Shown one piece after another: positions 4,592 through 22,006 of a stretch of DNA of 26,195 nt; position 1 is the stretch's first letter; each line of letters begins with the position of its first letter. Origin of the DNA: a virus; IMG/VR virus record IMGVR_UViG_3300011114_000992, positions 1-26,195 of that record. One strand, 5' to 3'. The position numbers were made by a program, and so were the translations under genes. Under the pieces are notes generated by a model. The model was not told the origin of the DNA. It made no database searches and saw only the letters and a list, made by a program, of their open reading frames with translations.

Positions 4592-4594
4592 GAT

Positions 4595-4880
4595 ATCTCC
4601 CCCTCCAAACGGAGGGGGATGTTGGGAGGGAGATATGAGAGGGAGGGGGGGAGCGTAAGTCTCCCCCTCCTCTCCTCTCTTCCTAAGAGGGGGAGATATC
4701 GGAGGGGGAGATCTAAGATGATGAATTACAAGGGAAAAGTGGGTAAATTGGGGTAGATCTCCCCCTCCGAGCGGAGGGGGAGATATCGATGTTGATTTAA
4801 AAGGGAAAGTGGGAAAATACGCTGGTGCTGAATTCTCCCTCCCGGAGCCTCGGAGGGGAGAGTTTCGGAGGGGGAGATCT
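4595..4880. repeat. Cluster of GC-rich palindromic hairpin repeats
   Basis: No gene is seen in the 378 bases between the primase-helicase stop and the next start. Most of the stretch is a set of related palindromes built on (A)GATCTCCCCCTCC and its complement. The clearest are a 9-bp stem at 4598-4619, a 9-bp stem with CTCCCCCTC at 4661-4669 and GAGGGGGAG at 4687-4695, a perfect 12-bp stem with GAGC loop at 4757-4784, and an imperfect one at 4834-4861. Extra single arms GGAGGGGGAGAT occur at 4701 and 4867. The spacers at ~4721-4750 and ~4791-4818 are diverged copies of each other (AAGGGAAA-AGTGGG core), so a unit of about 70 bases has been duplicated. There is no T-run, so these are not ordinary terminators. 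They resemble bacterial REP-like extragenic palindromes. Confidence 0.8.
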
Positions 4881-4889
4881 GGCGGATGA

Positions 4890-4969
4890 AAAAAGATGTT
4901 GCCTTCTGAAAAAGATGCAGGCATAATTCGTTCTGTAGTGACCAAACTGACAAAACAGGAGAAACTGAA
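4890..4969 (+). promoter_or_regulatory. Sigma70-like promoter and leader, copy 1
   Basis: TTGCCT at 4899-4904 and CATAAT at 4922-4927 are separated by exactly 17 bases, a good sigma70 arrangement. Transcription would begin near 4934, and AGGAG (4957-4961) precedes ATG 4970. Bases 4890-4947 are identical to 6942-6999 (58 of 58), and a third related copy lies at 6276-6351. It drives the 105-aa gene at 4970 and probably its followers. Confidence 0.75.
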
Positions 4970-5287
4970 ATGCAAATCGAAACCAACCTCTTCACCCAAG
5001 TCGACGAGCTCGGAATGCTGCTGGCTCAGATCAGCGACCTTCAGAAGCGTTCCGACGCAATCAAAGCCAACCTCAAGGAGTTGGGGGCTGATGGGCTGTT
5101 GCAGAAAAAATCCGTCAAGGGCAAAGATGTGCAGTTCATGGAAGGCGCGTTGTTCAGCGCCACGTACGTCGAGAGCAACAGCACGATCTTCGACCGCAAG
5201 AAGTTCGACGAGGCCTACGGCGAGGACGCGTTCAAGTCCGTCAGCAAAATCAGCGCCACATTCAAAATCCTCGTCACCAGCCGCTAA
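4970..5287 (+). CDS. Small hypothetical phage protein with coiled coil, 105 aa
   Basis: I do not recognise a named family. Residues ~8-45 (heptad-like LGMLLAQISDLQKRSDAIKA) look like a coiled coil, followed by a compact alpha/beta part with GALFSATYVES and a C-terminal FKILVTSR strand. No membrane segment or signal peptide is present. ATG 4970 has an AGGAG site eight bases upstream and lies just after promoter copy 1, so it is the first gene of a new transcription unit. Its first codons (QIETN) repeat at the DNA level near the start of the gene at 7023, which has the same leader. Likely an early accessory or host-takeover protein, by context only. Confidence 0.75.
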   Translation: MQIETNLFTQVDELGMLLAQISDLQKRSDAIKANLKELGADGLLQKKSVKGKDVQFMEGALFSATYVESNSTIFDRKKFDEAYGEDAFKSVSKISATFKILVTSR

Positions 5288-6351: not shown

Positions 6352-6942
6352 ATGAACCAGCAGAAACGAGTCCCAAACTCTTACACCGACGGTGGCCGCG
6401 CTGAGGCGGGTTTTCTCCACGAGTGCAGCGACTGTGCGGTGCGCGCTGTTGCTCTGTTCTGCAACACCACCTACGCCGCTGCGCACGCGCAGCTGAAGGC
6501 GGCGGGTCGCAAAGACGGGCACGGTACTTACAACCACCAGTACGCGCCGAGTTTGGACGCGGCTGCAGGCTACAACGCCAAGTTCAACCTCGACCCAAAG
6601 CTCAGCACCGTGGGTCGGGTGCTCCGGGCGTATCCCAACGCCAAGTTGGCGATCGCCGTTCCGGGCCACATTTTCTACGTTGAGAATGGCATTCAGAGGG
6701 ACACTCACTCAACCTCGCTGCACAGGAGAGTTTCCAAGTTCTGGGTCAAGGACGCCTCCCCGGTGGTCCCGGCTCGGAAAACCCGCTCCAAGGTGCGCGT
6801 GGCTGGGGTTGTTTACCGGAGTGTGTTCGAGGCGTTCGTTCAGCTCGCCCTGCCCCTCTCCAAGCACCAAGCCTTCCGCAAGCAGCTGAAGGCGGCGGGG
6901 CTGGGCGAGTTTGGAGGGCTCTGGTTCGAGGTGGTCGTGTGA
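6352..6942 (+). CDS. Putative papain-like cysteine protease, 196 aa
   Basis: The N-terminal ~120 residues fit a small papain-fold cysteine peptidase: Cys28 at the start of a helix (ECSDCAVRAVALF), a Gly-rich segment (AAGRKDGHGT), then His106 in a strand-turn (VPGHIFYVENG) and Asp117 shortly after (IQRDT). This Cys...His...Asp order and spacing recur in small phage proteins. The C-terminal ~60 residues form a separate unit, VAGVVYRSVFEAFVQLALPL followed by a basic helix, of a kind found in phage proteins and resembling a small DNA-binding helical domain. Possible roles include cleaving or deamidating a host target or maturing a phage protein; nothing in the sequence decides this. It has its own promoter (copy 2). 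The fold assignment is by motif only; an inactive relative is possible. Confidence 0.6.
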   Translation: MNQQKRVPNSYTDGGRAEAGFLHECSDCAVRAVALFCNTTYAAAHAQLKAAGRKDGHGTYNHQYAPSLDAAAGYNAKFNLDPKLSTVGRVLRAYPNAKLAIAVPGHIFYVENGIQRDTHSTSLHRRVSKFWVKDASPVVPARKTRSKVRVAGVVYRSVFEAFVQLALPLSKHQAFRKQLKAAGLGEFGGLWFEVVV

Positions 6943-7022
6943 AAAAGATGTTGCCTTCTGAAAAAGATGCAGGCATAATTCGTTCTGTAGTGACCAAACC
7001 GAAAAAACAGGAGCAACCGAAA
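6942..7022 (+). promoter_or_regulatory. Sigma70-like promoter and leader, copy 3
   Basis: TTGCCT (6951-6956), 17 bases, CATAAT (6974-6979), starting immediately at the stop codon of the cysteine-protease-like gene. Bases 6942-6999 match copy 1 exactly. AGGAG (7009-7013) serves ATG 7023. The leader after the -10 box (ACCAAACCGA-AAAAACAGGAG) aligns with those of copies 1 and 2. Confidence 0.75.
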
Positions 7023-7789: not shown

Positions 7790-8269
7790 ATGTCCGAAGA
7801 TGAACCCGACCCGGAAGTCAGCGACTCGTACTACGAGCCAACTCCCGTCACGCACGTCAGTGTGAAGCGCAAGCCCGGACGCCCCAAGAGAAACCACAAG
7901 GCCACCGGCGAGCCAAAGGGGAGGCCATTGAGCTCGGTCAGCCAAAAGGTCCTGCTCCGACGCCAGATCCTGGACCGCGTCAACACCAAGATGGAGGTGA
8001 CGCCGCTGGAGGTGATGGTGCTCACGATGCTCGATTTTTGGAGAAAGGACGAGAAGCTCGCTGCTTGCGCGATTGCGGAGAAGGCGGCTCCCTACATTCA
8101 CCCCAAACTCTCCTCCATCCAGCAGACTGTGGAAGGCGGCGACAAGCCGATTCAGATCGAGAATCAAGCAAAGATTTTCGACGAGCTGATGAACTCGATC
8201 GAGCTGATCGCGCGCACACGAGTGCTGGCCGAGGAAGATGAAACCAAAACTGCTACCCAAGCTCATTGA
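7790..8269 (+). CDS. terS: Putative terminase small subunit
   Basis: A 159-residue protein directly upstream of the large terminase, overlapping it by 32 bases, the usual position for the small subunit. It begins with an acidic stretch, then an AT-hook-like KRKPGRPKR (residues ~25-33) that could bind the DNA minor groove, a second GRP motif, then a helical core (TPLEVMVLTMLDFWRKDEKLAACAIAEKAAPYIHPKLSSI) and an acidic C-terminal helix. The 'AAPYIHPKL-x-x-I' segment recurs in small terminase-like phage proteins. It would recognise phage DNA and help load the large subunit. No clear Shine-Dalgarno precedes ATG 7790. Assigned mostly by position and partly by motif. Confidence 0.7.
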   Translation: MSEDEPDPEVSDSYYEPTPVTHVSVKRKPGRPKRNHKATGEPKGRPLSSVSQKVLLRRQILDRVNTKMEVTPLEVMVLTMLDFWRKDEKLAACAIAEKAAPYIHPKLSSIQQTVEGGDKPIQIENQAKIFDELMNSIELIARTRVLAEEDETKTATQAH

Positions 8270-9653
8270 GAGCGCGAGGGAGAATTTTGAGTACCTGAGC
8301 GAGGAGCAGCGCATTGCGTTCGAGTGGCGCAGTCGGTGGCTGATGAAGGCGCACAGCTACCAGCTCGAACCCAAGGACGACACGTGGAGCATTTGGCTCC
8401 TGCTGGCGGGGCGGGGTGCTGGAAAGACCCGCACCGCTGCGGAGGTGATGGGCTGGTGGGCGTACCGCAACCCCGGTACGCGGTGGTTGGTGTCTGCGCC
8501 CACCAGCGGGGACGTGAGGGACACGTGCTTTGAGGGTGAGTCGGGGCTGATAGCGGTGATCCCGCCGGAGCTTGTCCAGGACTACAACCGCTCGCTGCAC
8601 GAGCTGATGCTGAAGAATGGCAGCTTCATAAAAGGCATCCCCGCCAGCGAGCCGCAACGTCTGCGCGGCCCACAGTTCCACGGGGCGTGGTGCGATGAGC
8701 TGGCGGCGTGGGACAGGATTGACGACGCGTGGGACATGATTCAGTTCTGCGTCCGCCTCGGCAAGCGCACCCGCATCCTGATCACCACCACTCCGCGTCC
8801 AAAGGATCTGATCGTGGACTTGGTGGGGCGCGAGGGCGACGACGTCAAGGTGCACCGCGCCTCCACCTACCAGAACATCGCCAACCTCGCGCCCAACTTC
8901 CAGCGCCAACTGTTCCAGTACGAGGGCACAAAGCTCGGTCGCCAGGAAATTTACGCCGAGCTGATTGACGCGGAGGACGGCGGCATCATCAAGCGCGAAT
9001 GGTTCAAGCTCTGGACCGCAAACAAGAAATTCCCGGTGTTCACCTACGTCTTGCAGAGCTACGACTGCGCCACGTCCGAGAAGACGCACAACGACCCGAC
9101 CGCGTGCTCGGTGTGGGGAGTTTTCCGCCCCTCGCCCGATTCGGAGATGGAGGTGATGCTGATTGACTGCTGGCAGCAGCACATCCAATACCCCGACTTG
9201 CGCCCCAAGGTGATCAGCGAGTTCCGCAACCTCTACGGCTCCGACGGCGAGTTCGGCAAGGGGCGGCACGTGGACCTGGTGCTGATCGAGGACAAGTCGG
9301 CGGGCATCAGCCTGATCCAAGACCTCCAGCGAGCCAACCTCCCGGTGCGAGCGTACAACCCCGGCAGAGCCGACAAGCTGCAGCGGCTGAACTTGGTGAG
9401 CCACCTGATCGCGAACAAGAAGGTCTGGGTTCCCGAGAGCGACATCAACAAGGGCTTTGTGGCTTCGTGGGCCGAGCCGCTGATCAGCCAGATCTGCGCG
9501 TTCCCCGAGGTGAGCCACGACGACCTCGTCGACACCACCACTCAGGCGCTGAGGCTGCTGAACGATATGAGGATGATTGCGGCGGATCAGCCCCTCGCCG
9601 AAGACGACTACGTCGAGGATCGACCGCGTCGCATCAACCCCTACGCAGTGTGA
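8238..9653 (+). CDS. terL: Terminase large subunit (packaging ATPase-nuclease)
   Basis: A 471-residue DNA packaging motor. The ATPase domain has Walker A AGRGAGKT (57-64), Walker B FHGAWCDE (147-154, with Asp153 and catalytic Glu154) and the coupling motif TTTPRP (183-188). The nuclease domain shows the RNase H-like acidic residues: SYDCA (Asp276), LIEDKSAG (Asp352) and HDDLVD (Asp428/429). Together these are diagnostic. It pumps DNA into the prohead through the portal and cuts the concatemer. ATG 8238 lies within the small-subunit gene, with GAGGA just upstream. The length is normal for the family. The ends produced (pac, cos or direct repeats) cannot be told from this sequence. Confidence 0.96.
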   Translation: MKPKLLPKLIESARENFEYLSEEQRIAFEWRSRWLMKAHSYQLEPKDDTWSIWLLLAGRGAGKTRTAAEVMGWWAYRNPGTRWLVSAPTSGDVRDTCFEGESGLIAVIPPELVQDYNRSLHELMLKNGSFIKGIPASEPQRLRGPQFHGAWCDELAAWDRIDDAWDMIQFCVRLGKRTRILITTTPRPKDLIVDLVGREGDDVKVHRASTYQNIANLAPNFQRQLFQYEGTKLGRQEIYAELIDAEDGGIIKREWFKLWTANKKFPVFTYVLQSYDCATSEKTHNDPTACSVWGVFRPSPDSEMEVMLIDCWQQHIQYPDLRPKVISEFRNLYGSDGEFGKGRHVDLVLIEDKSAGISLIQDLQRANLPVRAYNPGRADKLQRLNLVSHLIANKKVWVPESDINKGFVASWAEPLISQICAFPEVSHDDLVDTTTQALRLLNDMRMIAADQPLAEDDYVEDRPRRINPYAV

Positions 9654-9666
9654 GGAGAACGAGCGC

Positions 9667-12618
9667 ATGGCTGACGAACTGAAAGCATCTCCCACCTTTC
9701 CCGGACAGGAGCTGATTGGCGGTCTCGGTCGAGTGGCCGAGCAGCTGGGCATCAGCCTGCAAGACGCAACCAAGATCATCAGCCAGCAAGGCAACAGCCC
9801 GATCAAAGCGTTCTTGGCCGATCTGTTGGTGGCGACTCCGTTGAGGTCTGCGGGGACTGCACTGCAGGACTACACCGGGACACCGCGAGACCTCACCGAG
9901 GAGCACCCTTACTCGCGTCTGCTGAGTGGCAAGGGCATGACACTGCGACTCGACCCGCGTGTGCTGGACGTGGCTCAGTTCGCAGCGCCTGTTGCGTCGG
10001 CTGGCGTCCAGGGTGCCAAGCTGGCTGGGAAGGGGGCGCTGGCAGCGACTCGCGCTGGTGAGCGCTTTGCCGAGAAGGCTGTGCCCAAGATCATGGAACG
10101 TGGCGGCGTTGGCGCTGAGATGCTTGGTGCCCTTAATCAGAACACCCAATCTCGCGTTATCAAACCCAAGGGCGGCAACTTTTTGCCTGAAGGCACGAAG
10201 GCGCTTAATCAATTGAAGTCGCAGGGTGTTGCCGTTATGCCATTGAACGAAACGGAGTTGGCAGAACGCATAGCGCAAGGCTACACAGTTCACAACCCCG
10301 CGACCGGCACATACTCCAAGCCCGACCCAATCAACAATTGGATCGACAAACAACTAACCCGCTACGTCAAGAACGAGATGGCTACGCCGGAAGACCCAAT
10401 CAGGGCGCTGGCGGAGAGGGGGACGCTGCACTTCGACGCGCCGCAAGTTAATCCAACTGATGCGCTTGATCTGAAGCGCCAAAAATTTGCTGCGGGCAAT
10501 AATGAAAAATGGGGCTATGGAGAAAGTCGGTTAGCGCAAAACTGGGAAGATGCCGCTGATTCCATAATTAACGTGGTTCCAGTCGAAAATTATCAGAACT
10601 TTGGCTTCAGCAACATGACCGGCGAACCGGGCTGGGAGTGGATTAACAAGGTCGATATTGATACGCCGCTGTACAAGTTGAACAACGGCGTATTAGGTGC
10701 TAGAGGGCGCGATCCATCGATTGAATCGCTCGGCTTCCCCCACCTGATTGACGAACTGCGCAACGCGACTAACCCAGCGTCTGGCCTGCCGCGAGAACTG
10801 CTGCTGAAGCCTGAGTCGTTGGCTAGGCTGTCCGTTCCGCAGGCTGTAGAGCGTGTAGCGAAGATCAACGAGTGGAGGACGGGCAATATAAAGAAGGCTC
10901 GTCTTGCAGATGCGGCGAATACAGATATTCACAAGGAATACAAAGACACAGGGATGCGCTGGGTACTGTTGAACAAGCCGGGACAGTTCAAGGCAGAGTC
11001 TGACGCGATGGGCCACTCTGTCCGGGGCTACGAGCCTACAGAGGGCGGCGGTTCAAGCGGATATGGTCTCGGTGGCTGGGATGCAATTAAATCTGGAGAT
11101 GCCAAGGTTTATTCCTTGCGTGATGCTAAGAATGAACCTCATGCGACGATAGAGGTTGGGGTAGAAAATCCCGGTCCTGCATTTAATAAACTTTCAGATG
11201 AAATGCAAAAAGAACTTCACGACCGCGCTCACAAGATGCATCCTGAAATTGAGGGGGGTGGTTGGCTCCCTGATTTTGGAGATGTTGGGTACGAAAAAAC
11301 TATTTATAGTTTAATGGAAGAACCAAAATACCAACAAGCATTGCGCGATGCTCCTCCAGATATTCAAAAAATCACCCAGATCAAAGGCAAGTCCAACCGC
11401 GCCCCAAACGAGGAGTACCTGCCCTATGTGCAGGACTTCGTGCGTTCAGGGAAGTGGAGCGATGTGGGGGATTTTAACAACACGGGGATGGTAAAGGGCA
11501 ACAAGGGTTCATCTGTCATTCGTGACGGTCCAAATAGATACGACGTGACGATGCCAGACGCGCCTTACTACACACGACGCGAGCTTGCGGATCACTTTGA
11601 GTCGCAAGGGGTGCCCGCCCTCGCTGCCAAGCAGCAGGCTGGCGACATAGAAGGAATGACAGAGCTGTTGGCAAGACCTCCGGCAGAGGGCGGAATGAAG
11701 CGTGGTGGCCCCGTGAACTTGGACGCAATGCAGATGGCGGTGTGGAACAAAAACGTTCCGCACAAGCAAGCGGGCGGGTTGGCCAAAGCGATTCCAAGCA
11801 ATCTGGCAAAGCTGATGAAGCTATTAACCACAGAAGCGCCTCTTCAAGCGCCACAAATACGCAAGGCGCTGGGACAGGCATTCACAACCGGCAACGAACA
11901 CTCGGTTGTCGGTCCAACGCACAGCACCCCCAACGAGCCTGGGCGTGTTGGCCGCATCACCACTCAAGGCAAAGAATCCGCTGTTTCACCTGATCGATTT
12001 GACATCCAGAATGCAGTAAGAGGTAAATCTAGCATCGTGGATTTTCATTCACATCCAGCCGACAGTGGCCGTGCATTTTCAACTTCACCCAGCTCTGCAG
12101 ATTTTCACTTCACAGCAAATGAATATTTCCCAGGGCCAGAGTCCCGAGAGTTGAAAACTCTCATCGCCTCTCCTGCAGACGCAGCACTTAGAACACCCAC
12201 TGAGTATTTGTTTTTCGCAACTGGCACCCCCGGCAAGGCGTTTGATCGGCGTGCGCGTGAAGCTGCAGTGTACGAGCTTCAGCGGAGTGGAAAAAACACT
12301 TTCAAAGATGTTCTAGACGACCCCAGGTTTAGAGATTATTTCGAGAGCGGCGGGCACATCGGCGACTGGGCGGAGGATGTCGCGCCGTTGGCACTTTTGA
12401 AGCTGCGTGAAGCGCAAGCCCTTGGACGTGGCAAGCTCCAGCTAAGCGGCAGGCCTGTCGCTGCAAGCGGCGCAACCAACATCGAACTGTACGACCTGAT
12501 GCAGCCTGCTGCAACTGAGTTCTTGCGCAACAAGGGGTTTGACAAAGGTGGTCCCGTGAACTTGGACGCCATGCGTATGGCTGTAACGAACAAACAACTA
12601 AGGAAACGTCATGGCTGA
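9667..12618 (+). CDS. Large multidomain 'polyvalent' virion-associated protein (PcfJ-like and JAMM-like)
   Basis: A 983-residue protein between terminase and portal. ATG 9667 is chosen for its TGAGGAG site (9651-9657). Residues ~1-150 are helical and hydrophobic in places. Residues ~430-610 resemble the PcfJ-like domain: RWVLLNKPGQ, MGHSVRGY (448-455), KVYSLRDA, ATIEVG, ITQIKGKSN (569) and YLPYVQDFVRSGKWSDVGD. The usual Cys of MGHCVGGY is Ser here. Residues ~744-900 look like a JAMM/MPN metalloprotease: Glu744 (GNEHSVVG), His794-Ser-His796-Pro, and Ser809-x-x-Asp812. The motif GGPVNLDAM occurs at 680-688 and 961-969, bracketing the JAMM block. Parts of the gene (about 10440-11380 and 11990-12330) are visibly AT-richer than their surroundings, suggesting mosaic origin. 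Likely packaged or injected; the stop overlaps the portal start. Confidence 0.8.
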   Translation: MADELKASPTFPGQELIGGLGRVAEQLGISLQDATKIISQQGNSPIKAFLADLLVATPLRSAGTALQDYTGTPRDLTEEHPYSRLLSGKGMTLRLDPRVLDVAQFAAPVASAGVQGAKLAGKGALAATRAGERFAEKAVPKIMERGGVGAEMLGALNQNTQSRVIKPKGGNFLPEGTKALNQLKSQGVAVMPLNETELAERIAQGYTVHNPATGTYSKPDPINNWIDKQLTRYVKNEMATPEDPIRALAERGTLHFDAPQVNPTDALDLKRQKFAAGNNEKWGYGESRLAQNWEDAADSIINVVPVENYQNFGFSNMTGEPGWEWINKVDIDTPLYKLNNGVLGARGRDPSIESLGFPHLIDELRNATNPASGLPRELLLKPESLARLSVPQAVERVAKINEWRTGNIKKARLADAANTDIHKEYKDTGMRWVLLNKPGQFKAESDAMGHSVRGYEPTEGGGSSGYGLGGWDAIKSGDAKVYSLRDAKNEPHATIEVGVENPGPAFNKLSDEMQKELHDRAHKMHPEIEGGGWLPDFGDVGYEKTIYSLMEEPKYQQALRDAPPDIQKITQIKGKSNRAPNEEYLPYVQDFVRSGKWSDVGDFNNTGMVKGNKGSSVIRDGPNRYDVTMPDAPYYTRRELADHFESQGVPALAAKQQAGDIEGMTELLARPPAEGGMKRGGPVNLDAMQMAVWNKNVPHKQAGGLAKAIPSNLAKLMKLLTTEAPLQAPQIRKALGQAFTTGNEHSVVGPTHSTPNEPGRVGRITTQGKESAVSPDRFDIQNAVRGKSSIVDFHSHPADSGRAFSTSPSSADFHFTANEYFPGPESRELKTLIASPADAALRTPTEYLFFATGTPGKAFDRRAREAAVYELQRSGKNTFKDVLDDPRFRDYFESGGHIGDWAEDVAPLALLKLREAQALGRGKLQLSGRPVAASGATNIELYDLMQPAATEFLRNKGFDKGGPVNLDAMRMAVTNKQLRKRHG

Positions 12619-15124
12619 TGTGCCGATCGACCCGAATTTCAATCGCTTCATTGACGGTCTGCAGATGACGCCGGATGGTGGTGCGGAGGTGATGCTCGAC
12701 GAGGAGCCGCCCGAGGTGGAGGAGATGGAGGACGGATCTGCGGTTGTCACTTTGGAAAAGACAAAGGGGCCAGAAGAGGACGCCGACTTCTACGAGAACC
12801 TTGCGGATGTGCTGGAGATCAACGACCTCAACTCCATCGCCACCCGTTACCTGGACATGATCAGCAAGGACAAGGAAGCTCGCAAGGAACGCGACAAGCA
12901 GTACGAGGACGGGCTGAGGCGGACGGGTCTCGGCAACGACGCTCCGGGCGGCGCAACCTTCATGGGCGCGTCCAAAGTCGTTCACCCGGTCATGGCCGAG
13001 GCGTGCGTGGACTTCGCCGCTCGCGCAATCAAAGAACTGTTCCCGCCGGACGGCCCGACGCGGACAAACATCCTCGGCGAGGTGACTGACCAAAAAACCG
13101 ATATTGCCGAACGCAAACGCGACTACATGAACTGGCAGCTCACGGAGCAGATCGAGGAGTTCCGCGACGAGCAGGAGCAGTTGCTGGCGCAGTTGCCGCT
13201 GGGCGGGAGTCAGTTCCTGAAGATGTGGTGGGATGATCAGAAAAAGCGTCCCTGCGCCGAGTTCGTTCCAATCGACAACGTGTACCTGCCGTTCAGTGCG
13301 GTGAATTTCTACACGGCGCAGCGGGTGACCGAGGTGCACAACATCTCGGAGTGGGAGTTCAAGAACCGAATCTCTCGCGGGCTGTACCGGGACGTGGAGG
13401 TGATCCGGGCGACGATGGAACCAGAACCCACCGGCCCCGAGAAAGCCAACAACAAGATTGAGGGCAAACAATACCAAGACGACGAGGACGGGCTGCGTCG
13501 TGTGTTCCACATTTACACGTGGCTGGAGCTTGAGGACGATGGAAAGTCTGACGGGAAATCGGCTCCGTACATAATGATGATCGACGAGTTGGAGGGTGAG
13601 GTGCTGGGTCTGTACCGCAACTGGGAAGAGGGCGACGACACCCTGACCAAGCTGGACTGGCTGATTGAATTCAAGTTCATCCCGTGGCGCGGTGCGTATG
13701 CAATTGGCTTGCCACACCTCATCGGGGGTCTTTCGGCGGCGCTGACTGGTGCTCTGCGGGCGTTGCTCGATTCAGCGCACATCAACAACGCCCCCACAAT
13801 GCTCAAGCTCAAAGGGGCGCGCATCAGCGGCCAGAGCCAACAAGTCGACGTCACTCAGGTGGTCGAGATCGAGGGCGCTCCGGGAGTGGACGACATAAAG
13901 AAGATCGCCTTCCCGATGCCGTTCAACCCTCCTTCGGCAGTGCTTTTCTCCTTGATGGGGTTCTTGCAAACCGCTGCCAAGGGCGTTGTCACAACCTCCG
14001 AGGAAAAAATCGCCGACATCTCGAGTCAGGCTCCCGTCGGCACAACGCAAGCCCTGATCGAGCAAGGGGCGGTGGTATTCAGCGCCATTCACGCTCGTCT
14101 GCACAACTCGCAGCGTCGGGTGCTGATGGTGCTGCAGAGGTTGAACCGTTGGTATTTGGACGAGCAGAAAAAGGGCGACATTGTCGCCGAGCTGCCCATC
14201 AAGCGCGAAGACTTCAAGCGCAACAGCGACATTATGCCTGTGTCGGATCCGCACATTTTCTCTGAAACTCAGCGCATGGCTCAGACACAAGCGGTGATGG
14301 CGTACGTTGACAAGTACCCGAATCTGTTTGATGCGCGGGTGGCTGTGGGGCGGGCGTTGAAGCAGATGAAGATCCCCAACATTCAGGAGCTCATGCCGCA
14401 GTACGCCAAGCCGCAGGAAATGCACTCCGCAGACGAGAACGCGGCCATGGCGATGGGGAGGATGGCGGTTGCGTATCCGCGTCAGGATCATCTGGCGCAT
14501 ATCGCGTCGCATCTTTCCTTCTCCAAAGATCCGGCGCTGGGGATGAACCCGATCATCGCCCCCGCGTTTATTCCGCAGGTGCTCGCACACATCAAGCAGC
14601 ACATGATGCTGTGGTACACGCAGAAAATGAACCAATACACCTTGATCCCTGCGAAGGTGAAAGCGCAAAAGTACGAGGACTCCAAGCTCGCCCCCGAGAT
14701 TGATCGTGCGATGGCTGTTGCGGCGCAACACATGGAAATGGACACGCCGCAGGAGTTTGCCCAGATTCTGCCGCAGATCCAGCAACTGGTTCAGGCAGCG
14801 CAGCAGTTCGGCAAACCGCAACCCGCTGCGATGGATGGCGACGCTCAGGCGATTCTGCAAGCGTCCATGGCCGAGACCCAACGTCGTGCCGCCAAAGATC
14901 AGGCTGACATCCAGCTCAAACAAGCTCAGATGGTGCAAGATCAGCAGGATCAGAACCGCGAGGACCAGTTCAAAGCGGCAATGAACACCGAAAACAACCT
15001 CACCAAAGAACGGATGCAGACGCTGGATCTGACGTTGGAAACGGCGAAATTGAAGAAAGAGCAGTCTGAATCAGCGATTGACCTGCAGAATGAATTGCAG
15101 CGGAACCTTAACCGAGGAGTCTGA
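12611..15124 (+). CDS. Portal protein
   Basis: An 837-residue protein beginning eight bases before the previous stop, with TAAGGAAA upstream. Position after the terminase, length and motifs fit a portal: after an acidic N-terminal ~90 residues come KVVHPVMAEACVDFAARAIK and ELFPPDGPTRT, then a helical stem region (ERKRDYMNWQLTEQIEEFRD), GGSQFLKMWW, and PIDNVYLPFSAVNFYTAQRV. This resembles portals of podovirus-like environmental phages. The last ~140 residues are Gln-rich helices (QAAQQFGKPQPAAMDGDAQA onward), consistent with a long barrel or tail domain as in P22-type portals. It forms the dodecameric ring at the DNA entry vertex, contacting terminase and, later, the adaptor. Confidence 0.85.
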   Translation: MADVPIDPNFNRFIDGLQMTPDGGAEVMLDEEPPEVEEMEDGSAVVTLEKTKGPEEDADFYENLADVLEINDLNSIATRYLDMISKDKEARKERDKQYEDGLRRTGLGNDAPGGATFMGASKVVHPVMAEACVDFAARAIKELFPPDGPTRTNILGEVTDQKTDIAERKRDYMNWQLTEQIEEFRDEQEQLLAQLPLGGSQFLKMWWDDQKKRPCAEFVPIDNVYLPFSAVNFYTAQRVTEVHNISEWEFKNRISRGLYRDVEVIRATMEPEPTGPEKANNKIEGKQYQDDEDGLRRVFHIYTWLELEDDGKSDGKSAPYIMMIDELEGEVLGLYRNWEEGDDTLTKLDWLIEFKFIPWRGAYAIGLPHLIGGLSAALTGALRALLDSAHINNAPTMLKLKGARISGQSQQVDVTQVVEIEGAPGVDDIKKIAFPMPFNPPSAVLFSLMGFLQTAAKGVVTTSEEKIADISSQAPVGTTQALIEQGAVVFSAIHARLHNSQRRVLMVLQRLNRWYLDEQKKGDIVAELPIKREDFKRNSDIMPVSDPHIFSETQRMAQTQAVMAYVDKYPNLFDARVAVGRALKQMKIPNIQELMPQYAKPQEMHSADENAAMAMGRMAVAYPRQDHLAHIASHLSFSKDPALGMNPIIAPAFIPQVLAHIKQHMMLWYTQKMNQYTLIPAKVKAQKYEDSKLAPEIDRAMAVAAQHMEMDTPQEFAQILPQIQQLVQAAQQFGKPQPAAMDGDAQAILQASMAETQRRAAKDQADIQLKQAQMVQDQQDQNREDQFKAAMNTENNLTKERMQTLDLTLETAKLKKEQSESAIDLQNELQRNLNRGV

Positions 15125-15269: not shown

Positions 15270-15445
15270 GATATGAAAGCGACTTCATCAGCGCAATAAA
15301 GGTACGGCAAGCTGACATAGCTGTGTCTCTCACTGCGGGTCATGTGGTGAATTTTGAGACGTACCAGCGTTTGGTGGGGCAATACGCGGGGCTGGAAGAA
15401 GCCCTGCAGATTCTCAACGACTTGTTAAAGGAAGAAAATGAGTGA
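15266..15445 (+). CDS. Small conserved helical protein, 59 aa
   Basis: Read directly from the sequence: ATG 15266 to TGA 15443-15445, overlapping both neighbours. The protein is MRYESDFISAIKVRQADIAV then SLTAGHVVNFETYQRLVGQY and AGLEEALQILNDLLKEENE. The pattern 'AI-x-x-RQ-x-D-I-x-x-S-L-x-x-G-x-x-V-NFETYQR-x-VG-x-Y-x-GL-x-x-AL-x-IL' recurs, as I remember it, next to portal and chaperonin-like genes in many aquatic phages. It is likely all-helical. No function is known to me; a role in head assembly is suggested only by position. Confidence 0.8.
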   Translation: MRYESDFISAIKVRQADIAVSLTAGHVVNFETYQRLVGQYAGLEEALQILNDLLKEENE

Positions 15446-15872
15446 AACTCCGGTAGCTTCTTACGAGGCTGATTTGGCGGGTGCATTCCCTGCTGTAGAC
15501 CCCGGTGCTGCACCTCTTGGAGCTAGGATCCTGCTTCAATTGCGGATGACGAAGAAAAAAGTCACTGCTTCTGGGATTATTCTGGCTCAAGAAACCCGAG
15601 ATACTGAGAAAGCGCAGAATCCGGTGGGGAAAGTGGTGGGAATTGGCCCTTTGGCGTTCAAAAAACGCGACACGATGGAGCCGTGGCCCGAGGGGTCGTG
15701 GTGCGAGCTTGGGGATTACCTCCGTGTGCCGAAGTGGACGGGTGATCGGTGGGAGGTCAGGCTTCCCAACACCCCCGAAACCGAGGAAAAGGTGGAATTC
15801 ATCATCATCAACGACCATGAAGTCATTGCCAAAATCACCGGCAACCCACTCGAAGTGAGGGCGTTTGTATGA
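15438..15872 (+). CDS. GroES-like co-chaperonin-fold protein
   Basis: A 144-residue protein with a Cpn10-like core at ~residues 24-137: PLGARILLQLRM, then GIILAQET, NPVGKVVGIGPLAF, EGSWCELGDYLRVPKW and VEFIIINDHEVIAKI. This is the beta-barrel pattern of GroES (G-x-R-V-L-V ... GG-I-I-L ... G-K-V-V-A-V-G ... GD-x-V ... I-x-x-x-x-E-I-L-A-x-I). Phage relatives are often annotated as co-chaperonins and, like T4 gp31, may pair with host GroEL to fold the capsid protein. The mobile loop that binds GroEL would be around residues 34-47 (RMTKKKVTASGIIL). AAGGAAG lies before ATG 15438. An alternative is a structural protein that only shares the fold. Confidence 0.72.
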   Translation: MSETPVASYEADLAGAFPAVDPGAAPLGARILLQLRMTKKKVTASGIILAQETRDTEKAQNPVGKVVGIGPLAFKKRDTMEPWPEGSWCELGDYLRVPKWTGDRWEVRLPNTPETEEKVEFIIINDHEVIAKITGNPLEVRAFV

Positions 15873-19987: not shown

Positions 19988-21016
19988 ATGGGTCAATTCA
20001 AACCAATGGTCAAGATGGAGACCACTGAGCCTTCAGTTATTCTGAAACTCGCGAAAGGTGGTCACGTCGCCATGAAATCTAAGGGCGAAAACGGTCACAA
20101 GCCGACGAAGAAGATGGACGGCGGAGCGATGGCGGCATTGGCAGGGACACCCGCTCTGGTGGGGCGTCCTGCGCTTAATGCGCCTGTTGCTTCGCCGGGG
20201 CGTCCGTCGATGACTGATCGTCGGAAGGCGATGATGATGGCGCAGATGATGAAACAGCGTCAAGCTGCTCCCGCTATGTCTCCCGCTATGCCTTCGATGA
20301 AAAAAGGGGGCAAGGCTGAAGGTGGCAAGATGGACGAGTCGAAAGACAAGGCCATGATCAAAAAAGCCTTCAAGCAGCACGACACGCAAGAGCATAAAGG
20401 CGGCAAAGGCACCAAACTGGCGCTGAAGACGGGTGGCGTTGCGATGGGCGCTGCCGGGTATGCTGCGGGTGGTGGTGTGAAGATGGGCAATGGCGGCGGA
20501 TTCAAAAAAGGCGGCGAAGTGATGAGCTACGTTGACGGCAATGTGGCAGGCACACCTCCGGGCAAGACCAACACCACCACTGGCGCGGTCAAGAAAGGCA
20601 ATGCTGGCGGCTTCAAGAAAGGTGGCTCCGCAAAAAAAGCCTACGCCACGGGGGGGCTTGTTGATTCTGGCCGTCCCGTGGCGATGCCTGAAGGACGTAA
20701 AAAGCCTTCGGCTCCTGTAAGCACCAACCAACTTTCTGGCACGTTCAAGAAAGGTGGCAGTGTAAAAAAGCTCAATGATGGTGGTGATGCTCAGTCTGAT
20801 AAAGAGACAAAAGGTTATAAGGGCACCTACGCCACCCAGAAGGCTGAAAATTTAGCTGATCGTGAAGCCATGAACCCCATGAACTACATCCGTCCTCTTG
20901 TGGATAAGGTGAAGGGGATGTTTGGCTCTGCTGATGCACCCGGTGCGGTGACGAAGACTAAGGAGTCTACGACCATCGTTCCAAAGCGGCGCAGCGGCGG
21001 AATGGCTAATTGCTGA
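19988..21016 (+). CDS. Gly/Lys-rich KKGG-repeat protein, 342 aa
   Basis: ATG 19988 has AAGGAG upstream and follows the previous stop at 19977; the longer frame from 19928 overlaps the upstream gene. The protein is strongly basic and Gly/Lys/Ala/Met-rich. KKGG occurs at residues 105, 173, 210 and 254, three times within an F-KKGG context (GGFKKGGEVMS, GGFKKGGSAKK, GTFKKGGSVKK), with further GG-K and K-GG pairs. A Met-rich patch (AMMMAQMMKQRQ) lies at ~81-92. Such low-complexity proteins occur in environmental phage late operons; they may be flexible, DNA- or capsid-binding, or act in assembly. I cannot assign a function. A terminator follows directly. Confidence 0.75.
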   Translation: MGQFKPMVKMETTEPSVILKLAKGGHVAMKSKGENGHKPTKKMDGGAMAALAGTPALVGRPALNAPVASPGRPSMTDRRKAMMMAQMMKQRQAAPAMSPAMPSMKKGGKAEGGKMDESKDKAMIKKAFKQHDTQEHKGGKGTKLALKTGGVAMGAAGYAAGGGVKMGNGGGFKKGGEVMSYVDGNVAGTPPGKTNTTTGAVKKGNAGGFKKGGSAKKAYATGGLVDSGRPVAMPEGRKKPSAPVSTNQLSGTFKKGGSVKKLNDGGDAQSDKETKGYKGTYATQKAENLADREAMNPMNYIRPLVDKVKGMFGSADAPGAVTKTKESTTIVPKRRSGGMANC

Positions 21017-21481: not shown

Positions 21482-22006
21482 ATGCCAAGCAAATCCCCTT
21501 CTCAGCATCGTTTGATGGCGGCGGTCGCAAATAACCCTGCGTTTGCCAAGAAGGTTGGAATTCCTGCCAAGGTTGGGAAAGAGTTTGCCAAGGCTGATGA
21601 GGGAAGGAAATTCAAGGGGGGTGGATTGTATTACAACATTAATGCAAAACGCGAAAGAATCTCCGATGGCTCTGGGGAAAAAATGCGGAAAGTTGGAAGC
21701 AAAGGTGCACCTATCTCGCAAGCATTTTTAGACTCTGCAAAGACCGAAACAAAGAAAGAGGGTGGTGTTTCTCTTTCTGTTGGTCGTGGTGAAAAGCTCT
21801 CTGTAGAGCGCGGCGCTGGGCTGACTGCCAAGGGCAGAGAGAAGTATAATCGAGAAACTGGAAGCAACCTCAAAGCTCCGCAGCCGCAAGGTGGCCCCAG
21901 AAAAGATTCATTCTGCGCCCGAATGTCAGGGGTCGTTAAGCACGCTTCAGGCGACGCCCCGAGGGCAAAAGCCTCTCTCCGACGTTGGGATTGTCCGGGT
22001 TGGTAA
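21482..22006 (+). CDS. Basic phage protein with DUF6321-like C-terminus, 174 aa
   Basis: ATG 21482 follows the preceding stop by two bases, without a strong Shine-Dalgarno, so translation may be coupled. Residues 1-45 (SKSPSQHRLMAAVANNPAFA, KKVGIPAKVGKEF) form one recurring unit; residues ~47-90 include GGLYYNINAKRERISDGSGE and SKGAPISQAFLDSAKTE; the C-terminal ~60 residues (GLTAKGREKYNRETGSNLK, then KDSFCARMSGV and RAKASLRRWDC) match what I recall of DUF6321 in aquatic and cyanobacterial phages. Cys145 and Cys171 could pair or bind metal. Highly basic overall, so DNA or capsid binding is plausible. Function unknown. Confidence 0.72.
   Translation: MPSKSPSQHRLMAAVANNPAFAKKVGIPAKVGKEFAKADEGRKFKGGGLYYNINAKRERISDGSGEKMRKVGSKGAPISQAFLDSAKTETKKEGGVSLSVGRGEKLSVERGAGLTAKGREKYNRETGSNLKAPQPQGGPRKDSFCARMSGVVKHASGDAPRAKASLRRWDCPGW

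Follow-up and report, generated by a model that had tools for sequence, protein, structure and literature searches.

The gene between terminase and portal

The window, a 26,195-base viral record of IMG/VR (IMGVR_UViG_3300011114_000992), encodes a long protein directly between the genes for the terminase large subunit (terL) and the portal, and the gene holds the same place in related phages. We refer to this position as the slot and to its product as the slot protein. The main features are:

8238..9653, + strand: terL, terminase large subunit, left border of the putative cargo slot (Pfam Terminase_6N, E 5.4e-25; PHROG 38 and 2)
9667..12618, + strand: modular polyvalent-type slot protein, 983 aa (open frame; homologs at 9 IMG/VR loci)
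10156..11616, + strand: PcfJ-like module, residues 164-650 (27-sequence alignment; AlphaFold; Foldseek)
12611..15124, + strand: portal (head-tail connector), right border of the slot (PHROG 1216, E 8.1e-21)

The central module of the slot protein is a homolog of the PcfJ-like family (PF14284). Its AlphaFold model, built from a 27-sequence alignment, reached a pLDDT of 78, and a Foldseek comparison of this model with viral models returned PcfJ-like proteins as the best matches (E 7.9e-32 to A0A6J5KNR3). The window copy itself is not matched by the Pfam PcfJ profile, whereas homologs aligned with the module pass its cut-off (L067 with 59.0 bits, L116 with 33.4, and L099 with 33.1). The paired cysteines of the family, CxxxxxC (MGHCVGGYC), are lost in the window module (MGHSVRGYEP). 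In a fold search of the PDB, the model matched no structure significantly (best E 0.08); an acetyltransferase identity, suggested by many PDB fold matches that were all weak, was not believed. When the module is aligned with that of contig L001, whose terL and portal proteins are 99% identical to those of the window, it appears as a mosaic in which near-identical and unrelated segments alternate.

A published study (PMC5512222) describes polyvalent proteins, which occur in phages and in conjugative elements, as single polypeptides with many unrelated enzymatic domains; it presents the phage proteins as thought to be packaged and found mostly in phages with portal-terminase genes. The slot protein resembles them in uniting at least two unrelated domains, the PcfJ-like module and the JAMM-like block described below, and in being encoded between terL and portal. 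ART-PolyVal and LPD domains occur in this slot in relatives. Among the best 80 of 208 portal relatives, which we surveyed, the slot holds one or two long genes, and the domains of their products include ART-PolyVal, PcfJ, and LPD23, in combination. The slot is optional: the large gene is present in Pelagibacter phage HTVC027P, Phage DSL-LC04, and the uncultured phage MW202545 and absent in the cultured relatives Caulobacter phage RW, Roseobacter phage CRP-901, and Planktothrix phage Pag-Yong1.

The third-position GC content of the slot gene is 0.59 in its upstream part and 0.52 in the block, compared with 0.86 in terL and 0.76 in the portal gene, as if the whole slot gene were of other origin than its neighbors. 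Elsewhere in the window, a GroES-like co-chaperonin gene is found at 15438-15872 (Pfam Cpn10, 27.8 bits), and its position is kept in relatives. An 81-nt direct repeat (4890-4970 and 6942-7022, 95% identical) lies at the start or upstream of two small genes and may be a repeated regulatory segment. The stretch 4592-4787, which follows the 2498-4591 gene, contains a 28-nt inverted repeat and several GGAGGGGGAGATATC-type units.

Paired tags and the JAMM-like block

The last part of the slot gene contains two copies of a short tag:

11704..11751, + strand: internal tag, GGPVNLDAMQMAVWNK (repeat comparison and tag collection)
11752..12546, + strand: JAMM-like block between the tags (same extent in L001 and L002/L011; 94% aa identity)
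11896..12102, + strand: span of the putative JAMM ligands (residue positions; Prok-JAB and DUF4329 over HxHP...SxxD)
11896-11898, + strand: E744, putative JAMM ligand
12046-12057, + strand: H794-x-H796-P797, putative JAMM ligands
12091-12102, + strand: S809-x-x-D812, putative JAMM ligands
12547..12594, + strand: C-terminal tag, GGPVNLDAMRMAVTNK (repeat comparison and tag collection)
12595..12618, + strand: tail QLRKRHG and stop (Shine-Dalgarno-like TAAGGA; overlaps the portal start codon)

The original prediction of an in-frame direct repeat encoding GGPVNLDAM-x-MAV-x-NK was confirmed. GGPVNLDAM is found twice, at residues 680 and 961; the two 48-nt copies share 40/48 bases (83%) at a spacing of 843. 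When the codons of the gene were shuffled 60 times, no in-frame pair of 48-mers matched at more than 29/48 bases, which puts the repeat far beyond chance. The second copy, which had been taken for the C terminus of the protein, does lie near the end, but seven residues (QLRKRHG) still follow. Over 39 nt, pS between the two copies is 0.50 and pN 0.05; over the full 48 nt, the values are 0.44 and 0.09. About half of the synonymous sites have thus changed while the amino acids have hardly done so, which indicates that the tags of the window are old and that their peptide has been kept.

In our searches, the block enclosed by the tags (residues 697-955) is confined to three contigs and occurs as two versions that are 94% identical. 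It was never seen without the repeats, both tags being present in 3/3 of the block-bearing contigs. Queries of viral contigs with the block, its core, and a DNA pattern for VDFHSHP yielded no homologs beyond these three. Among genome contigs, neither the block alignment nor the VDFHSHP pattern found homologs, the remaining matches being due to chance; a tblastn search of phages and plasmids likewise gave none, and a sequence search of the PDB returned nothing meaningful. In a GC comparison, which had been proposed earlier, the block (0.541) did not differ from the part of the gene upstream of it (0.548), so that composition provides no evidence of recent import.

The residues predicted as JAMM-type ligands, E744, H794, H796, P797, S809, and D812, are all present at their positions, the motifs reading H794-S-H796-P797 and S809-S-A-D812. 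All putative ligands are invariant in both versions of the block, and E744 in all three contigs. This glutamate is located 50 residues before H794, a spacing that falls in the usual range for JAMM proteins. Among Pfam families, the block core is matched best by Prok-JAB (PF14464), at 14.8 bits and an E-value of 0.027, and next by DUF4329, at 12.9 bits and an E-value of 0.11. Both families belong to the JAB clan, and the two matches coincide over the HxHP...SxxD part. With this record alone as the target, Prok-JAB gives a single match with an E-value of 6.3e-4. However, the score of 14.8 bits is below the Pfam cut-off of 25 bits, and the 15 residues between H796 and D812 are five more than in the canonical H-x-H-x10-D arrangement, the usual JAMM spacing being 10 residues. 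AlphaFold did not provide a usable model of the block (pLDDT 34) because the alignment, three rows of two distinct sequences, was too shallow.

The JAMM assignment is thus favored by the ligand residues and the two weak, coincident Pfam matches, whereas the profile score and the ligand spacing speak against it. On balance, we regard the block as a probable member of the JAMM family and thus as a putative metallopeptidase. The resemblance could also be accidental, with HSHP...SxxD arising by chance in an unrelated orphan domain. The sub-threshold scores, the non-canonical distance from H796 to D812, the lack of a usable fold model, and the restriction of homologs to three contigs would all fit such a domain, whereas the convergence of the two best Pfam matches on the same residues, the glutamate spacing, and the invariant ligands argue against it; we consider this reading rather unlikely.

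When positions 11782-12531 are compared with L001:4736-5485, pN/pS is 0.54 (from 24 differences only), whereas the ratios of portal and terL are 0.05 and 0.03. In this small sample, the value for the block fits relaxed or changing selection.

A tag family at C termini and joints

Both tags of the window belong to a wider family with the consensus GG-x-V-x-x-DAM-x-x-AV-x-x-K. A DNA pattern for GG-x-V-N-x-DAM matched 43 stretches of viral contigs. In those homologous to the window phage, the tag either is internal or closes the gene before portal, with 7 to 14 residues left to the stop; several of the other matches are due to chance. With a longer motif, 34 versions that differ in DNA were collected from internal and C-terminal positions; the sequences upstream of them are unrelated. 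Over all pairs of tag copies, pS is 0.71 and pN 0.20, the latter biased low by the motif-based collection. The modules that precede the terminal tag differ among relatives and include an ADP-ribosyltransferase, PcfJ-like modules, and others. Relatives that lack the JAMM-like block carry tags as well, and the internal copies reach three per protein.

Where the slot holds two genes, the upstream gene closes with a different tag, GG-x-ITSDDLIxEERPL. This version was seen in L057, L060-L062, L066, L068, L069, L088, L099, L003, and L046. In most of these, it is encoded by the upstream one of two slot genes; in L003, it is part of a long single protein. Further types are GGLxAMxR, GGLTLMK, and GGSINLNQEYKL. 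What these further types have in common is a basic-GG-hydrophobic character, not their DNA.

A basic residue followed by GG is present within the last 30 amino acids of 44/50 distinct C termini encoded by slot genes, the remaining 6/50 having no tag. Other genes of the same loci served as controls. A basic-GG C terminus was found in 2/49 terL proteins, 6/57 portal proteins, and 2/23 homologs of the 21482-22006 product; for the GroES-like, scaffold, capsid, and several other genes, the count was 0. In a non-redundant set, 69/84 slot proteins carry the basic-GG C terminus, whereas 13.8 would be expected from random windows of the same proteins. The surveyed slot proteins are related, so that counts of tags and of alignment breaks do not represent independent events.

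The tags coincide with the points at which homology between slot proteins breaks off. Among these related sequences, 21/23 internal DAM tags are located at an alignment break, compared with a mean of 4.5 and a maximum of 12 in 1000 random trials. Likewise, 117 alignment ends between related slot proteins lie at most 10 residues from an internal basic-GG motif, against an expectation of 56 (sd 6.7). Individual relatives show the same at the DNA level. In L056 (portal 96% identical), the match to the window stops at 11745, in the internal tag, and restarts at 12644, in portal; a different block occupies the space between, and the internal tag shares 54 nt with the window at 92.6% identity. In L057 (portal 93%), the match restarts at 12565, inside the second tag, and an ART-PolyVal domain lies between its two tags. 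In L068, homology restarts at 12543.

A search for relatives that end after a single tag had been proposed, and L059 (portal 84%) is such a case: it contains one hybrid tag and no JAMM-like block. The 18 nt upstream of this tag match the internal copy of the window at 14/18 positions and the terminal copy at 5/18, whereas the 24-base KQLRKRHG stretch before the stop matches the terminal copy at 23/24 and the internal copy at 10/24. L059 thus represents the state expected from loss or absence of the block. The closer relatives L056 and L057 carry other domains at the same joint. Because relatives place the tag after quite different parts, these parts appear to be swappable in frame, and such comparisons give good support to modules being gained or lost in frame at the repeat.

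The idea that the repeats bracket an in-frame block open to exchange has therefore held up, but a one-off duplication of the tail has not, given the family-wide occurrence of the tag and the age of the copies. According to this second idea, the block arose or was captured through a recent duplication of the 3' end of the gene, as two in-frame copies that are 83% identical and bracket the block exactly might suggest. It is disfavored by a pS of 0.50 against a pN of 0.05, by the presence of both copies in L001 and L002, by tags in relatives without the block, and by the flanks, which differ between the window copies and find separate matches in L059. We consider a recent tail duplication very improbable.

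Could the tag be kept mainly as a short stretch of DNA homology for recombination, with a peptide that has no task? The breaks of homology at the tags and the 54 nt shared with L056 would agree with this. In such a case, however, the large synonymous divergence combined with kept amino acids (the all-pairs pN of 0.20 being biased low) would be difficult to understand, as would the persistence of C-terminal copies in single-tag proteins. The GGLxAMxR, GGLTLMK, and GGSINLNQEYKL types are alike in character and not in DNA, and the gene at 19988-21016 (see below) has basic-GG motifs with no domain exchange seen. A pure recombination hook is therefore improbable.

The end of the gene could also be conserved as a translation signal, for ribosome binding or coupling of the portal gene. 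TAAGGA is found in the last codons, which overlap the portal ATG, and it is the DNA of KQLRKRHG that is 23/24 identical to L059. The GG-x-V-x-x-DAM part, however, is separated by more than 30 nt from the portal start downstream of it, its glycine codons are GGTGGC/GGTGGT and not GGAGG, and GG-DAM is also kept at internal joints, where the distance to any start exceeds 800 nt. Position and codons thus rule out a ribosome-binding role of the GG-DAM part, and a translation signal is a highly improbable explanation of the whole tag; a putative role in translation is supported for the last 7-8 residues (KQLRKRHG) only.

Proposed role of the tag

Outside the slot, the window contains a second gene of similar character:

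19988..21016, + strand: second basic-GG gene (motifs along its length; C terminus KRRSGGMANC before the stop)

It is located downstream of the capsid gene and encodes a repeat protein with about a dozen basic-GG motifs. Its homologs end in a basic-GG C terminus in 32/32 distinct C termini. A basic-GG C terminus is consistently common to just two gene families of these phages, the slot gene and this one. From this restriction we infer that the tag may mark proteins for loading into, or docking onto, the virion.

The explanation that we favor, and hold as a whole to be moderately probable, is as follows. The gene between terL and portal would serve as a cargo slot for a modular protein of polyvalent type. 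Each module, here the PcfJ-like module and then the JAMM-like block, is closed by a short conserved tag composed of a basic residue, GG, and a small hydrophobic or amphipathic peptide (here GGPVNLDAMxMAVxNK), which is kept for its peptide sequence and would always stand at the C terminus of the last module. Because the tags recur at the joints, they are also the sites at which modules are gained, lost, or exchanged in frame. By means of the tag, the slot protein would be loaded in the capsid or at the portal, and it would enter the host together with the DNA. The JAMM-like block might then act on a host target, such as a ubiquitin-like conjugate of an anti-phage system. Carriage in the virion and action on entry are proposed by analogy to published polyvalent proteins (PMC5512222). 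Ubiquitin-like conjugates, such as those of CBASS, are a reasonable guess for the putative target of the block. The slot C termini without a tag (6/50), the cultured relatives without a slot gene, and the sub-threshold score and unusual H796-D812 distance of the block weigh against this explanation.

JAMM peptidases of known function act at the C-terminal glycines of ubiquitin-like modifiers, and each joint of the slot protein contains a GG. The tags might be cleavage sites of a polyprotein from which separate effectors are freed by cuts after GG, perhaps with the JAMM-like block as the enzyme. CBASS Cap3 is a host JAB deconjugase, an isopeptidase (PMC10097602), and the P1 polyvalent protein DdrB is processed before packaging (PMC5512222). 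However, nearly all relatives have tags but no JAMM-like block, which therefore is not a general processing enzyme, and a cut at the extreme C terminus of the last module would free a short peptide only. Processing at the tags is thus improbable. Cap3 offers a possible parallel to the favored explanation: both would bring JAMM-type chemistry into the phage-host conflict, Cap3 being encoded by the host and the block by the phage.

The slot protein differs from the published polyvalent proteins (PMC5512222) in two respects: the JAB domain reported in them is of the RadC type, whereas the window block best resembles Prok-JAB, and a term search of that study revealed no description of a recurrent short tag at C termini and joints. 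Nor did we find a described tag of this kind in the open-access literature searched, which is weak evidence of absence.

Short peptides that direct proteins into capsids are known from other systems. T4 has a capsid targeting sequence, a short peptide that directs packaging, and the same task is proposed here for the tag. Like T4 Alt and other effectors that are packaged in the capsid and injected, the slot protein is encoded in a late or structural gene region. In contrast to the T4 systems, the tag of the window is C-terminal and of basic-GG type. Encapsulin cargo-loading peptides are also short and C-terminal; they follow a flexible Gly stretch and direct unrelated cargo into a shell of HK97 type. 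The likeness lies in a short C-terminal tag on diverse modules (in the 44/50 slot C termini); the sequences, by contrast, are only loosely alike. Encapsulins are reviewed in PMC7355545.

In its boldest form, the proposal would make the basic-GG C-terminal tag a general virion cargo-loading signal of this phage group, common to the swappable effectors of the slot and to the repeat protein encoded downstream of the capsid gene. Any module that gained the tag would then be packaged and injected, and the block would represent a new subfamily of deconjugases, delivered by the virion. We regard this extension as speculative and, as it stands, unlikely. Packaging marks of phage effectors against host defenses are known for few effectors; if the tag is a loading signal, it would provide a sequence handle for listing packaged effectors in uncultured phages. 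A JAMM-like block of non-RadC type at this place would suggest that virions deliver an attack on the ubiquitin-like conjugation of bacteria.
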